This document shows positions 57,911 to 64,000 of a stretch of 64,000 bases of DNA, piece after piece. The notes under the pieces are model-generated. The model saw nothing but the letters and a program-made list of their open reading frames with translations, did not search any database and had not been told where the DNA came from. Source of the DNA: Candidatus Thiodiazotropha endoloripes (GTDB lineage Bacteria; Pseudomonadota; Gammaproteobacteria; Chromatiales; Chromatiaceae); the NCBI GenBank assembly GCA_001709035.1, contig LVKA01000019.1, forward strand, positions 124,001 to 188,000. Reading direction: 5' to 3'. The translations under genes were made by a program, and so were the position numbers. The first letter of the stretch is position 1. Every line of letters starts with the position of its first letter.

Positions 57911-58993
57911 TCAATTTTCAGGCAGCCAGTACAGATAATCGAACAGCATTCCTCTGGAGCTGATATCAGCTTCAACATCGTGGTAGTCATATCGCCACAA
58001 CGGTCTGACTTCCGGTGACCGCTCCTGATCCTCATCACTCAGATGAAATGGCCTACCGGACTCGTTGATCGGGATCAGATAGAGGTGGGTCATTTTAGCC
58101 GCTCTGTAGATCAGATTGTTTCCCACTTCAGCAAACAGCCATTTACCATCGGGTGACCATTCCGGATTGAAGGCTACAGGTCCTTCCGCCCCCAGCGCGG
58201 CACTTGCCAGTAAGTTCAGGTTACTGCCATCCAGGTCCATGATGTAGATCTGCAGCTGTTGCGGGCTCCAGGTGAACTCTTCATGCTCTAAAGCAAATAC
58301 CAAACGGGTCTCATCAGGGCTGATTGCCCAGGCACTGATGGTCATCTCCGGGTCAGCCAGTTGCGCATAGTCATTCAAGTCAATGGAGTATTCCAACTCG
58401 GCGGATAGCGGGCTTGTGATATGGAAGCTTGTTTCGGCACTGTAGACAAGCCTGTAGTCAGACAGCCAGTGCATAGGATGAAGGTGTATCCGACCCGCCC
58501 CTACAACAGTATGGCCTAACGGGACTCCATCGGTGGTCAAGATCTCCAGCTGTCGGCTGAAAAAGTCATCATCCAGGATTCTGATGAGAGAGAGATAGCG
58601 CCCATCCTGGGAGAGGCTGACGCCTTCCAGCTGGAATGGCAACTGCAGATCAAACAGGCTCTGGCCCTGGAATGTCTGCCCACTGACAAGCGCGGTCTCA
58701 CCACGGGCTACGACGAGAAATCTATCGCCGTGATAGGGCAGAGACACCACATCAAAGTCGGTTGCCTGGGGATACTTATCAATGAAATAGTCATGACCAG
58801 TGTTCGGCACACCTGTGTATTGCCCAGTCGCTGCATCCATTAACGAGACGGCACTACCATCCATCACAAGAAACTTTCCGACAAGACCGGGATTCAATTG
58901 TTGGTTGTCAGATCCCGATCCATCCCCGCAACCACAGGCGGTGAGAATGAGTAACAAACGAAAGAGTCGTGAAGCCCATCTGATACCTGGCAT
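57911..58993 (-). CDS. Lipoprotein with TolB/WD40-like propeller
   Basis: 360 residues, ATG preceded by AAGGAA. Lipoprotein signal (RLFRLLLILTAC, lipobox LTAC) with GCGDGSG after the lipidated Cys, so it is anchored to a membrane and faces the periplasm. The chain contains propeller repeats: FQLEGVSLSQDGRYLSLIR, ISAWAISPDETRLVFALE and FNPEWSPDGKWLFAEVG, each with the SPDG-type turn. Function is unknown. It sits between the cus and exosortase regions on the same strand as both. Confidence 0.75.
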   Translation of the reverse strand: MPGIRWASRLFRLLLILTACGCGDGSGSDNQQLNPGLVGKFLVMDGSAVSLMDAATGQYTGVPNTGHDYFIDKYPQATDFDVVSLPYHGDRFLVVARGETALVSGQTFQGQSLFDLQLPFQLEGVSLSQDGRYLSLIRILDDDFFSRQLEILTTDGVPLGHTVVGAGRIHLHPMHWLSDYRLVYSAETSFHITSPLSAELEYSIDLNDYAQLADPEMTISAWAISPDETRLVFALEHEEFTWSPQQLQIYIMDLDGSNLNLLASAALGAEGPVAFNPEWSPDGKWLFAEVGNNLIYRAAKMTHLYLIPINESGRPFHLSDEDQERSPEVRPLWRYDYHDVEADISSRGMLFDYLYWLPEN

Positions 58994-59090: not shown

Positions 59091-59714
59091 TCAGTCTGTG
59101 GCCCAGACCATCTCGGTCAGATAGGCCCGGTATTGAACCACCCAGATTACCAGCGGCAGTACGGAGGGCAAAATCAGATAGCCCAGCTGATAACCAAGCG
59201 CGACGCCATCCATCGCCAGGGGGGTAAATGCCATCTGGGCCGAGACCGCCGGCCCCAGGGTGAAGAGCAAGGTCTTCAGGCCATCGAAACAGACACCCCA
59301 GACCTGAAACAGAAACAGCAGCGGCAAACCCCACAGCCACTTGTTCCATTTTAAATCCTCATCCTTCGCATCTCCGGGCGAGGCAATCGAAAGCGCGGTA
59401 TAAAGGGGCAGACCGTAGCTGTAGAGGAGTGGATTAACGGTAAAGACCAGATCACCGCTGACCCCGGGTTGCTGACCTCTCAACAGCTCAGCCGGCATCG
59501 CCAGCAGAGTGACGAAGTCGAGACGGTCCCCCTGCTGGTCCACCCCCTGGAAGATCTGCGGAAACAGTGCGGTCAGAATCCAATCACTGAGCAGACCGAC
59601 AGGCCAGACCAGACTCGGCGCCAGGTAGTACCAAACCGCCAGGCAGACCGGCAGCCAGAACACCACCTTCAGCACGAAGGCGGCGACCGGGTTGATCGAG
59701 CTAAGCCGAAGCAT
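59091..59714 (-). CDS. Exosortase H-associated membrane protein
   Basis: 207 residues with about five hydrophobic segments. The sequence resembles the protein routinely found downstream of exosortase H; motifs include NPVAAFVLKVVFWLPVCLAVWYYL near the start and a long periplasmic loop with LRGQQPGVSGDLVFTVNPLLYSYGLPL. Its start overlaps the xrtH end by 14 bases, which supports a working partnership, but the molecular role is not known. Confidence 0.75.
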   Translation of the reverse strand: MLRLSSINPVAAFVLKVVFWLPVCLAVWYYLAPSLVWPVGLLSDWILTALFPQIFQGVDQQGDRLDFVTLLAMPAELLRGQQPGVSGDLVFTVNPLLYSYGLPLYTALSIASPGDAKDEDLKWNKWLWGLPLLFLFQVWGVCFDGLKTLLFTLGPAVSAQMAFTPLAMDGVALGYQLGYLILPSVLPLVIWVVQYRAYLTEMVWATD

Positions 59715-60213
59715 GCTCAGGCCGACTATGCGGTTTCATTCTTGGCAGGTAACGCAACCAGATCAGAAACACCACCAGCACATCGAGAATGATCAGTGAC
59801 TGCCAGATGTAGAGATGGGCCCACTCGAAAGCAGTCTGATTCCACTGCCCCAGGTAGAAAAGGCTGATAATCCTGAGCAGGTTCATGGCCTGGATTGCCA
59901 GGATACCGATGGTGATACCGATCAGTTTCATCCGCCAGCTTGCCGGGAAGGCGAGCATGGCTGCAATCAGTACGATACTCGCCTCGATACCATTGCATCC
60001 CGCCTCTATGGAGACCGCAAAACCACTCGCTTTGTCCAGCAGAACAATCCCGTAGGCGTGCACCCCGTGATCGAACAGCTGAACCAGCCAGGCGCTGACC
60101 TTGGCAATAAAGGCGGTGAACGGAATCACCACCCACTGCTGGCCGAAAGGCATCAGCTCCAGAGTGAATAGGCCGATTAGTATGGCGGTAAAAAGCAGTG
60201 CAAATCGTAGCAT
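59701..60213 (-). CDS. xrtH: Exosortase H (XrtH)
   Basis: 170 residues from the ATG at 60211-60213; the frame opens at a TTG ten codons earlier. Several membrane helices carry the transpeptidase residues in the usual order: Cys73 in EAGCNGIEA, Arg114 in NLLRI and His133 in AHLYIW. Exosortase H is expected to cut and anchor proteins that end in an IPTL-type tail. Together with its partner gene it is divergent from the giant repeat protein. Confidence 0.88.
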   Translation of the reverse strand: MLRFALLFTAILIGLFTLELMPFGQQWVVIPFTAFIAKVSAWLVQLFDHGVHAYGIVLLDKASGFAVSIEAGCNGIEASIVLIAAMLAFPASWRMKLIGITIGILAIQAMNLLRIISLFYLGQWNQTAFEWAHLYIWQSLIILDVLVVFLIWLRYLPRMKPHSRPEHASA

Positions 60214-60569
60214 CTTACAAATACCTTCAACGAAGGAAGGCAATTACGTCTCTCAAATGGCGGGCCGGTTTTACAGGAAACATGCTGTGCGTTCAGATCT
60301 TGTCATTTACCGGGCCGCTTAACAAACGAATTAAAGGACTGAATGACAATCTGCTCAGTTTCGATCAACCAAAACATCAACGCAAGCGCGCAGATACTGG
60401 AAATCAAAAATAAAATTTACAATTTTAAGCTTTTGTAAACCATCAATACGATGTTTAATATCGATCGAATAGAACGCTGCTTGTTCGGTTAATCGAGGGA
60501 CTGTGACACTCTCAAGCATCAATATTAAACAACGGCCTGAAGCAGGGATGTTCAAATTGAGTATCCTGA
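60214..60569. other. Divergent intergenic region between xrtH and the repeat protein
   Basis: 356 bp, moderately AT-rich around 60400-60480, carrying promoters for both genes by position. No clear -35/-10 pair, operator or RNA was recognised, and short open frames within it are not convincing. Confidence 0.4.
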
Positions 60570-63500
60570 ATGAACTTCGACATCCCGAGTTTCGCCAAAG
60601 CCCCCGTATCCAGTCTCAGAACCTCCCGTAACAGACACCGCCTCCGTACTGTCAAAGTCTACCTGACACTCGGTCTGTTGCTGCTACCGGGCCTGGCATC
60701 CGCTACCACCACCATCAACCATCTGTTCAGTCCGGCGACCATCAATCCGGGTGACACGCCGACTTACCGTATCGAGATTGCCAACGACGCTCTGGTCAGC
60801 CTGACCGAGGCAGAAGTCACTTCGCTGTTGCTGCCCCAGATCACCATCGCCAATCCGGCCAACATCACCAACACCTGTGGTTTTACCGGAGTCACAGCCG
60901 CACCCGGAACCTCAAGCATCGTGCTGACCAACGGCACCATCCCGGCGCGGGTGGGGCTGGCCGATGGCCAGTGCTTTTTCGAGCTCTCTGTCACCTCCAC
61001 CACACCAGGCACCTACATCAATAATATTCCTGCGCTGGTGCCACCGGCCAGACCCGATGCGGTGACCGCCGGTTACTCGGCCCTGGAAAATGGGGTACGA
61101 GTCTCGAATGCGACTCCTGCGAATGCCACCCTGGTCGTCAGCACCCTGCTCAACCCCACTGGCAACAAGACCTTCAGCCCGTCGCCGGCCATCGCCGGGG
61201 ATGCCACCACCCTGAGTATTGTGTTGAGCAATCCCAATGCCGGTGCAACCCTGCCGCTGACCACCTTCACCGACTCCCTGCCTGCCGGCATGGTGGTGGC
61301 CACACCAGCCAACAGCTCGATCGCCTGCAGCGGCACCGGCGCATCCAATGGCGCGGTTACCGCAACCCCCGGCACAGACACGGTAACCCTGACCGGCGGT
61401 ATCATCGGTGAATCGGGTAACTGCACCATCGGCGTGGATGTGGTGGTGCCCACCATTGCCGGCACCAGCCAGCTGTTCGATAATGCCCTGCCTCTGGGCG
61501 CTATCGGCAACACCCGAGGCCTGACCAGCCCCGCATTCAACCGCAACCTAACCGTCAACACACCGATTTCGGTCTCCAAGACCTTCAATCCGGATACCAT
61601 TCCAGCCGGGCAACCCGCACTGCTGACCCTTGTCATCAACAACAACAGCACCGACAACACACTGCCGATCACCAGTTTTCTCGACGACCTCACGGCCACC
61701 ACTCTGTCGATCGTCGACACCTCAACCGTGGCACCGGCCGATCCAGCGGTGGTCTGTGATGGGGCTGGCTCCGCCAATGGCAGCTTGACCGATGCGGGCA
61801 GTAACCCGCTGGATCAGGGCGACACCGGCATTCTGCTGAGCGGCGCCGTGGCGGGTGCCCGCTCCGGAGCCAACGGCAAATGTACAATCACCGCCTATGT
61901 GACTTCCACCACCGATGGCGCCCACACCAACACCGTAGCCGCGAATGCGGTGGTGAATCCTGTCGGTCACGCCAGCCCCACCGCCAGTGACGTGCTCAAC
62001 GTGAATGCGCAGCTGACCATCGACAAAACGGTCAGTGTCAATCAGGTAGCACCGGGGCAGTGGACTCAATTCAGTGTCACCATCAACAACTGGTCCGGTG
62101 CGGATGTGACCAATGTCAGCTTTCGCGACAGCCTGCCTAACTCAGGTGGCAACCAGATGGTGCTGGACGACTCCGCCGGCATTCCCGTATCCAACAGCTG
62201 CGCCGGTGGCGTCTATACCGGTGTGGATGGGGACGCCGAACTGCTGTGGACCGGCGGTACCGTGCCGGCGGGTGTTGGCGCTACAGCGGGAACCTGTACC
62301 TTGGTGTTCCGCGCCCGTCTGCCGGGTACCGCCTCCACCGGACTGGTATTCAGCAACCAGATTCCCAGTTGGGACGGTGTTAACGGTGTCGGCGGCACGG
62401 GCAATGGTCCCGGTGGCAACGTGGTCAACCCCTCACCAAGCCCGGCGGTCAATGTCACCACGGTGGATTCTGTGGCCGTCACCAAGTCCTTCCTGCAAGA
62501 TCCCATTGCCCAGGGTCAGACCTCGACCCTGAGATTGCTTATCCGCAATCGCACACTGAATGCGTTGACCGCTGTCAACCTCACCGATACCCTGCCAGCG
62601 GGGCTCACACTGGCGGCGAATCCGGCAGCCACCAATAACTGCGGCGGCACGCTGCAGGCCTTTCCCGGGGATACCTCGGTCGTCCTCAGCGGGGGCACGG
62701 TCAATCCTCGACCCAATGGTTCTGTCCAGACCACCTGTACGATCACGGTTCAGGTCACCGGTAATACACCGGGCAGCTACCTGAACACCATCAATCCGAT
62801 CAATTTCAGCAGCAGTGGCGGGACCATTCCATCTGCGGTTTCCGACACCCTGACCATCAGTGCGGGGATCACCGGCAGCAAGAGCTTCAACCCCACCAGT
62901 GTGACCTCTGGCGGAACCGCACGGGTCACCATCAATGTGGCCAATCTCTCTTCCGGTGAATTGTCCAATGTCACCATCGATGACAGCACCTTCTCCGCCG
63001 GCCTGAGCGTCGCCAATCCGGCCAATGCCAGCACCTCTTGTGGTGGCGCCACCACCCTGGTGGTCAATCCCGGTGCAACCAGTGCCCAGTTGCAGGGGGT
63101 TACTCTGCCGGCCGGCGCCAATTGTGATTTCGCCTTCGATGTTACCACCAGCGGAGCCGGCCCCTGGAGCAACACCATCCCTGCAGGTAATATCAGCAGC
63201 GCTGAAGGGGCCTCCAACAGTACACCGGTCACCGCCACCCTCAACGCCGCCTCCGCCGACATCGGCATCAACAAGGCCTTCAATCCGATTATCGTCACCG
63301 GTGGCCAGCCCTCTCTATTGACCATCGACGTGATCAACAGCTCTGGCGCCACCATCCATGATGCGGCCTTCACCGATATCTTTCCGGAAGGGATTGTGGT
63401 CTATCCGGTACCGGACGCCAGCACCAACTGCCTTGGCGGAACGGTCACCGCGGTACCCGGTGGGGGCAGTGTCGGCCTGGTGGGAGCAACCCTGCTTCCC

Positions 63501-64000
63501 AATGACATCTGCCAGGTGTTCGTCACCACCACCTCGCTGCGCTTTCTCAATCTGACCAACTTCATTCCCGCCGGGGTGATCTCCAGTGAAGAGGGCTACA
63601 CCAACGCCCTGGGAACCCAGGCCTCTCTCTCCACCCTGCAGGGTCTGGGACTGACCAAAGGCTTTGCGCCTGCCTATATCCCACCGGGCGGCACGGCGCG
63701 CTTGATCCTGGAACTGATCAGTACCTTCGATCCGAACGCGGTATCGCCGGTCACCCTGACCAGTGTCAGCTTCACCGACCCATTGCCTGCGGGCCTGGAG
63801 TTCGCGGCCGTACCCAATGCCGCCACCACCTGCGCCGATGCCACACTGACGGTCAACACCACCACCCAGGCGTTGACCATCTCCGGTGGCACCCTGCTAC
63901 CAGGCACCGCCTGCCTGATCGAAGTGGATGTCACCGCACCTCTGGTGGGTGTTTACGACAATCTGATTCTGCAGAATGCGATCACCACCGATCAGGGCGT
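60570..64000 (+). CDS. Giant secreted DUF11-like repeat protein, 3' end outside the window (partial)
   Basis: At least 1143 residues; the frame is open from the ATG at 60570 to base 64000 and no stop is visible. A long basic N-terminus is followed by a signal peptide core YLTLGLLLLPGLASA with cleavage before TTT. Eight tandem domains of 128-153 residues begin at about residues 50, 199, 336, 485, 638, 770, 901 and 1029. Each opens with a KxFxPxxIxxGxxxxLxIxIxN pattern, such as SKTFNPDTIPAGQPALLTL, and has TDxLPxG and a Cys pair near the end. This is the bacterial DUF11/surface-repeat fold. A C-terminal anchor, presumably an IPTL-type tail for XrtH, should lie beyond the window. Confidence 0.87.
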   Translation, partial: MNFDIPSFAKAPVSSLRTSRNRHRLRTVKVYLTLGLLLLPGLASATTTINHLFSPATINPGDTPTYRIEIANDALVSLTEAEVTSLLLPQITIANPANITNTCGFTGVTAAPGTSSIVLTNGTIPARVGLADGQCFFELSVTSTTPGTYINNIPALVPPARPDAVTAGYSALENGVRVSNATPANATLVVSTLLNPTGNKTFSPSPAIAGDATTLSIVLSNPNAGATLPLTTFTDSLPAGMVVATPANSSIACSGTGASNGAVTATPGTDTVTLTGGIIGESGNCTIGVDVVVPTIAGTSQLFDNALPLGAIGNTRGLTSPAFNRNLTVNTPISVSKTFNPDTIPAGQPALLTLVINNNSTDNTLPITSFLDDLTATTLSIVDTSTVAPADPAVVCDGAGSANGSLTDAGSNPLDQGDTGILLSGAVAGARSGANGKCTITAYVTSTTDGAHTNTVAANAVVNPVGHASPTASDVLNVNAQLTIDKTVSVNQVAPGQWTQFSVTINNWSGADVTNVSFRDSLPNSGGNQMVLDDSAGIPVSNSCAGGVYTGVDGDAELLWTGGTVPAGVGATAGTCTLVFRARLPGTASTGLVFSNQIPSWDGVNGVGGTGNGPGGNVVNPSPSPAVNVTTVDSVAVTKSFLQDPIAQGQTSTLRLLIRNRTLNALTAVNLTDTLPAGLTLAANPAATNNCGGTLQAFPGDTSVVLSGGTVNPRPNGSVQTTCTITVQVTGNTPGSYLNTINPINFSSSGGTIPSAVSDTLTISAGITGSKSFNPTSVTSGGTARVTINVANLSSGELSNVTIDDSTFSAGLSVANPANASTSCGGATTLVVNPGATSAQLQGVTLPAGANCDFAFDVTTSGAGPWSNTIPAGNISSAEGASNSTPVTATLNAASADIGINKAFNPIIVTGGQPSLLTIDVINSSGATIHDAAFTDIFPEGIVVYPVPDASTNCLGGTVTAVPGGGSVGLVGATLLPNDICQVFVTTTSLRFLNLTNFIPAGVISSEEGYTNALGTQASLSTLQGLGLTKGFAPAYIPPGGTARLILELISTFDPNAVSPVTLTSVSFTDPLPAGLEFAAVPNAATTCADATLTVNTTTQALTISGGTLLPGTACLIEVDVTAPLVGVYDNLILQNAITTDQG

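Follow-up and report, generated by a model that had tools for sequence, protein, structure and literature searches.

What does exosortase H (XrtH) of Candidatus Thiodiazotropha endoloripes act on? Exosortases sort surface proteins in Gram-negative bacteria, and the gene for this one lies in a window of 64,000 nucleotides—the whole stretch of DNA that was analysed, C18:124001-188000 of a genome of 4.87 Mb in 25 contigs—back to back with a repeat protein whose open reading frame (ORF) is still open at the window end. The sequence-only reading of this stretch took the repeat protein for the likely exosortase cargo and predicted an IPTL-type tail past position 64000. Reading beyond the window completes the cargo to 1972 residues, and a tail of this type is found at its end. 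With a probability of about 0.8, the locus, which belongs to a Candidatus Thiodiazotropha lineage, is a dedicated XrtH module with one cargo to anchor, a long and doubly cross-linked surface stalk.

Enzyme, partner, and cargo

Family scores are judged by curated cut-offs, those of NCBIfam for TIGR04177, TIGR04174, and NF041730 and the gathering cut-off of Pfam for PF25564. The gene xrtH (59701-60213, minus strand) encodes 170 residues as counted from Met11, the start common to most relatives in the alignment; its longest ORF extends to 60243. XrtH scores 205.5 bits with TIGR04177 (cut-off 86). Its partner gene (59091-59714, minus strand) encodes an XrtH-associated membrane protein of 207 residues, which scores 184.8 bits with NF041730 (cut-off 35), and overlaps xrtH by 14 bases on the same strand. 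The cargo gene runs divergently on the plus strand from 60570—a start conserved in the sister loci L052 and L053—through the window end at 64000 to window-equivalent position 66488 (C18:190488). The enzyme, the partner gene, and the back-to-back layout are as the sequence-only reading had described them.

The catalytic triad named there, Cys73/Arg114/His133, is invariant in a 12-sequence alignment and identical in 92 of 92 sequences. This invariance is partly built in because the sequences were selected with the triad itself: 11 of the 92 were picked by a pattern demanding it, and the other 80 were found via two peptide patterns, one of which contains the triad His. The Cys and the Arg in these 80 are free of this bias; all 80 contained the Cys motif used for trimming, and none was dropped.

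The cargo is matched 14 times by DUF7933 (PF25564), each time over the cut-off, and a genome-wide search (E up to 0.001) gives no further match to this domain. Eight DUF11-like domains and at least 1143 residues had been read from the window. These numbers hold inside the window and fall short of the full 14 domains and 1972 residues because the window cuts the gene at 64000. DUF11 matches the window part with 60.6 bits, and the best family for its eight stretches is DUF7933 with 434.3 bits.

The C-terminal tail

The cargo ends in SIPVMPHWGLLLMAALLGMIAASRLAVNRPK: the motif IPVMPHWG, then the hydrophobic stretch LLLMAALLGMIAA, then a basic end with R, R, and K within the last nine residues. This IPTL-CTERM tail follows the last repeat, R14, at window-equivalent 66396-66467 on the plus strand, outside the window. 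Its motif part is conserved in three relatives (IPVMPHWGLLLM). The consensus of IPTL-CTERM is IPTLxxWG. On the last 45 residues, the IPTL-CTERM model (TIGR04174) scores a modest 24.5 bits over a cut-off of 20.5. These residues give three NCBIfam matches at E up to 1—midcut_by_XrtH, VPAMP-CTERM, and IPTL-CTERM—and no signal of the type IX secretion system (T9SS), LPxTG, PEP-CTERM, or VPLPA-CTERM type at the same threshold. The sequence-only reading had named a T9SS, LPxTG, or other unrelated signal as what would speak against its prediction.

A search of the genome for further proteins with this tail, likewise proposed there, singles out the cargo, the only protein to pass the cut-off (24.1 bits). 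Eight matches appear in all when E is allowed to reach 10, the other seven under the cut-off. The next best, L007, was considered as a second cargo and rejected; it scores as a PEP-CTERM protein, with 27.6 bits over a cut-off of 16. L008, L009, L010, and L012 were likewise set aside, as they appear, in our reading, to be polytopic membrane proteins of respiration or flagella. L011 and L013 reach 13.1 and 11.7 bits, both under the IPTL cut-off.

Repeats and predicted cross-links

The cargo begins with a signal peptide region (60570-60704, plus strand; residues 1-45), read from the translation, with the hydrophobic core VYLTLGLLLLPGLASA. The repeats start directly after it, and no separate adhesive head is seen in the cargo. 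Inside the window and on the plus strand, these are R01 (60705-61148), in which the Cys pair and the Asn are kept and His51 and Ser85 replace the Lys and Asp of a Lys-Asp-Asn triad; R02 (61149-61562), with K200, D235, and N305 next to C253 and C285; R03 (61563-62009), with K337, D372, and N454 next to C396 and C438; R04 (62010-62471), with K486, D520, and N596 next to C544 and C576; R05 (62472-62870), with K639, D673, and N739 next to C691 and C723; R06 (62871-63260), with K771, D805, and N868 next to C824 and C852; R07 (63261-63644), with K902, D936, and N997 next to C954 and C981; and R08 (63645-64000), truncated at the window end. R09-R14 lie outside.

The triad is present in 13 of the 14 repeats, all except R01, which lacks both the Lys and the Asp. 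Within the 1895 residues of the repeat region, 13 of 14 lysines are triad lysines. The spacing from Lys to Asp is 34-35 in 12 of the 13 triads and 35 in the published DUF7933 example. When the 14 repeats are aligned, all 28 cysteines of the cargo fall in two shared columns. A Cys pair had been noted in most repeats and is in fact present in every one. The disulfide ladder proposed from it is strengthened by this strict placement, yet the proposal had missed the triads.

The modelled R07 domain has as its best solved match the isopeptide domain 9IFR, as judged by Foldseek (E 2.6e-5). A tandem-domain alignment was judged poorly registered and left out of the structure model. Searches of PDB sequences with the repeat gave nothing useful, 8s83 being matched at E 0.094. 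The cargo presents two marks of CnaA-like isopeptide domains, namely, the residues in place (13 of 14 repeats) and the fold of a solved domain. From sequence and model, a Lys-Asn isopeptide bond is expected in 13 repeats and a disulfide in every one.

Between species, R01 is among the two most conserved repeats, with a ratio of nonsynonymous to synonymous substitution rates (dN/dS) of 0.02-0.04. R05 is the most variable repeat, with 77-79% identity and a dN/dS of about 0.2; the protein is otherwise 90-92% identical.

Pairing of XrtH and IPTL tails across genomes

Of 369 genomes sampled across the class, 30 match the XrtH model, 14 of them over the cut-off. IPTL tails were searched in 29 genomes: these 14 and 15 without an XrtH match. 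The latter are what remains of 20 listed XrtH-less genomes once G008, G011, G013, G016, and G018 are excluded (319 more were unlisted), and three of the 15 belong to the genus or family of the window. Genomes whose XrtH match stays under the cut-off (16) lay outside the search. IPTL tails over the cut-off occur in 10 of the 14 XrtH genomes and in none of the 15 others, for which Fisher's test—calculated by hand, with negatives that are not matched for phylogeny—gives about 5e-5. Other XrtH genomes carry up to seven IPTL tail matches.

At the level of loci, the best 80 of 409 loci encoding an XrtH relative were scanned with a tail model built from 26 tails of the class-wide search, the own genome excluded. 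Among 6,652 closed ORFs, seven match (E up to 1.2e-4), all of them 15-1019 bases from xrtH; the next match has an E of 0.026 and lies 6.6 kb away. The seven belong to the sister loci L052, L053, and L055, to L091 (Thiocystis violacea), to L112 and L121, and to L129 (Pseudomonas sp.). A tight arrangement of xrtH and cargo thus marks this lineage and some few others.

Pseudomonas sp. MRCP1333 encodes a DUF11-type repeat protein (L129:6036-9974) whose tail reads APTLSQG and whose gene stops 15 bases short of the xrtH ORF. The IPTL model scores 25.6 bits on its tail and 19.5 bits at full length. It is an independent case of a repeat protein encoded beside its exosortase.

Four XrtH relatives among the same best 80 of 409 are closest, with 93-95% identity and a surrounding DNA that is 86-93% identical: those of Candidatus Thiodiazotropha sp. 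'RUGA', of a Stewartia floridana symbiont, of Candidatus Thiodiazotropha taylori, and of a Chromatiales genome. The first three we take to be lucinid-clam symbionts. Within the genus, XrtH over the cut-off, DUF7933, and the SPOR-domain gene described below occur in the same six of 22 genomes; the other 16 have neither XrtH over the cut-off nor DUF7933, and two of them (G383 and G385) show sub-cut-off matches to the XrtH model. Enzyme and cargo are adjacent in six of six genomes carrying both. The first repeat match lies about 0.5 kb from the xrtH match in all six, and the cargo of G377 is split over two contigs. As judged by dapF identity—91-100% for the carriers, 61-65% for the other 16—the six are one clade. 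Tail and adjacency support the earlier view of the repeat protein as the likely cargo, which XrtH would then process.

Weighing the rival explanations

Several points, taken up here with the rival explanations that draw on some of them, count against a dedicated XrtH module with a doubly cross-linked cargo. When the full-length cargo of 1972 residues is scanned, the IPTL model reaches 16.7 bits and stays under its cut-off of 20.5; on the tail alone, midcut_by_XrtH (27.2 bits, cut-off 45) and VPAMP-CTERM (26.0 bits, cut-off 32) stand above it in raw bits. Four of the 14 XrtH genomes (G062, G177, G218, and G300) have no IPTL tail. No cargo is found near xrtH in 73 of the 80 loci (57 of the 80 extend 2 kb or more in each direction), so that action at a distance is common for XrtH. 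Since the six carriers of the genus are one clade, they count as a single event, with at most one gain or loss. The genome further encodes two other exosortases, one of the XrtD type (556.8 bits, cut-off 400) and one that is XrtA/XrtW-like and under every specific exosortase cut-off; either might process the cargo, which would make the adjacency of xrtH incidental. Such a division is very unlikely, given that the tail matches the IPTL, VPAMP, and midcut_by_XrtH models and neither PEP-CTERM nor VPLPA-CTERM, and that enzyme and cargo are neighbours in every carrier, albeit within this one clade, with neither XrtH over the cut-off nor DUF7933 in the other 16 genomes. Just as unlikely is a cargo that stays uncut, with the tail as a plain C-terminal membrane anchor of a periplasmic or inner-membrane-tethered chain. 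The hydrophobic stretch and basic end would equally serve that purpose, but the tail also has its motif part, which is conserved in the three relatives, and enzyme and cargo stay together across carriers. An IPTL-CTERM protein is, moreover, known outside the outer membrane: The S-layer protein of Methylomirabilis lanthanidiphila carries such a tail, immunogold labelling places it at the S-layer and outer membrane, and peptides were detected throughout it with none in the C-terminal tail—a gap that the authors ascribe to a hydrophilic region (accessible part of PMC8671808). By analogy, this protein is the best outside support for a surface location, the likeness being that of the tail.

As to the stalk itself, the Lys-Asp-Asn residues might be inherited family sequence that forms no bonds here, and disulfides alone would then stabilise the chain. 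According to the available text of Costa et al. 2025 (PMC12617251), the corresponding DUF11 positions are not universally conserved and some domains are apparently bond-free. The spacing from Asp to Asn also differs between repeats, with 59-66 in 10 of 13 triads, 70-82 in R02-R04, and 60 in the published example, and the lead of 9IFR is narrow, the next Foldseek entry having an E of 6.4e-5. Bond-free triads are nevertheless improbable: All lysines but one of the repeat region sit at the triad position, the sole repeat without this Lys, R01, lacks the Asp as well, and fold and Lys-to-Asp spacing agree with the solved isopeptide domain and the published DUF7933 triad. The dedicated XrtH module with one doubly cross-linked cargo is thus the preferred reading.

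Proposed mechanism

In a dedicated XrtH module, the signal peptide would send the cargo through Sec, and the IPTL-type tail at its other end would keep it in the inner membrane. By analogy with archaeosortase A, XrtH would cut at or near IPVMPHWG with Cys73/Arg114/His133 and hand the C-terminus so formed to an acceptor. The partner protein may assist XrtH, as the pairing of their genes suggests. The 14 Ig-like domains would fold in the periplasm or outside, where a buried Asp is predicted to catalyse the Lys-Asn isopeptide bond in 13 domains, with a Cys-Cys bond in all 14. The product would be a stalk or coat element on the surface, long, stiff, and resistant to proteases. Because the repeats directly follow the signal peptide with no separate head, R01 is the natural tip; this sole repeat without the triad Lys and Asp would be free.

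The partner protein and neighbouring genes

The predicted structure of the XrtH-associated membrane protein (mean predicted local distance difference test, pLDDT, 91.7) features a long helix, a β hairpin, and further helices, and no convincing match is found among solved structures. Its gene occurs in 41 of the 80 XrtH loci (single-sequence search, E up to 0.001). The archaeosortase ArtF model picks up eight of 34 members of the partner family at E up to 10 (best 1.8e-5), and one member matches a heimdallarchaeosortase model (E 0.0013); in three ArtF matches inspected in detail, the matched stretch lies inside the family region in a similar register. Comparison of partner and XrtH profiles gives a P of 0.016-0.062 locally and 0.49 when forced to be global, a two-way ranking of the partner family against XrtH with hidden Markov models (HMMs) is negative, and none of the 34 members conserves the catalytic Cys, Arg, or His at the expected places. 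Weak archaeosortase matches without the triad hint at a dead exosortase, but the direct HMM tests against XrtH are negative, and the idea is kept as a lead. In a wider picture that builds on it, the partner would have an exosortase fold without the triad and would form an active/dead heterodimer with XrtH, perhaps placed at the septum by a SPOR-domain protein and serving one stalk with nearly all domains doubly cross-linked. We regard this picture as doubtful.

The SPOR-domain gene lies convergent to the cargo gene at window-equivalent 66613-67332 on the minus strand (L002:6044-6763). Its product has 239 residues, includes hydrophobic segments, carries a SPOR domain at its C-terminus (PF05036 28.3 bits, cut-off 21), and may place the module at the septum. 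The intergenic region between the starts of xrtH and the cargo gene (60214-60569) shows no sigma-70-like site by promoter scan and nothing above the gathering score in an Rfam scan; the scans yielded a single terminator-like site and are otherwise empty. A PD40 gene at 57911-58993 was considered as part of the module and rejected, since close matches are limited to 2 of 22 genus genomes, this one among them, and the stretch is missing from L052-L054. Diverged copies of this PD40-type protein are grouped elsewhere (G369:C7, G376:C38, and G388:C24). The genes at L002:7119-12850, next to the module, look like a surface-glycan cluster: Their products are FrhB-like, a polysaccharide pyruvyl transferase, a membrane protein of the LPG_synthase_TM type, and a large membrane protein that matches YfhO under the cut-off.

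Comparison with known systems

Among the literature matches listed for exosortase and XrtH, none deals with the enzyme XrtH, the letters occurring only in an antibiotic-dosing model; the sole match for exosortase H or IPTL-CTERM deals with IPTL-CTERM. Nothing was found that pairs exosortase with Thiodiazotropha. All these negatives are weak evidence of absence since subscription journals were mostly not covered.

The closest known system is XrtH/IPTL-CTERM sorting (TIGR04177, TIGR04174, and NF041730), with the same enzyme, partner, and tail, in which IPTL tails follow XrtH across families. It differs in that up to seven tails occur elsewhere, whereas one cargo over the cut-off lies divergently beside the enzyme here, and in that the motif is IPVMPHWG instead of the consensus. 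Archaeosortase A belongs to the exosortase superfamily and recognises a C-terminal signal on its substrate. In Haloferax, it processes and lipid-anchors a surface-layer protein much as proposed here, although in an archaeon and with another signal (PMC7157517, accessible part).

For the repeats, the closest system is that of the CLIPPER/DUF11-type isopeptide domains, whose solved DUF11 domain is 9IFR, the best fold match found here. As far as the available part of that source goes (Costa et al. 2025, PMC12617251), DUF7933 is a CnaA-like isopeptide family predicted by modelling—with Lys 973, Asp 1008, and Asn 1068—in which disulfides are prevalent. Archaeosortase tails in archaea are described in that part, and no exosortase H cargo is. 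The cargo here has 13 triads and 14 Cys pairs per chain with one extra Lys in the repeats and no extra Cys. The giant adhesin of Mobiluncus mulieris is likewise a long Ig-like chain cross-linked by isopeptide bonds and disulfides, as mass spectrometry and crystallography of selected domains have shown. It differs by 51 Ig-like domains in 7651 residues, by additional ester and thioester bonds, by an N-terminal thioester adhesion domain with no counterpart seen in the cargo, and by LPxTG anchoring, mentioned for it and for the second largest protein (PMC10619420, accessible part).

Each element belongs to a described family, and the isopeptide chemistry of DUF7933 is already predicted in print. 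What is new is the combination of elements and the layout of one enzyme and one cargo, which is unusually clean: A genome with a single XrtH, a single partner, and a single IPTL tail over the cut-off makes a clean test case, as only one effect is to be expected from one deletion. Nearly every Lys of the repeat region and every Cys of the cargo is predicted to be in a cross-link. If true, isopeptide-stabilised stalks would extend to the exosortase-anchored proteins of a clam-symbiont lineage.
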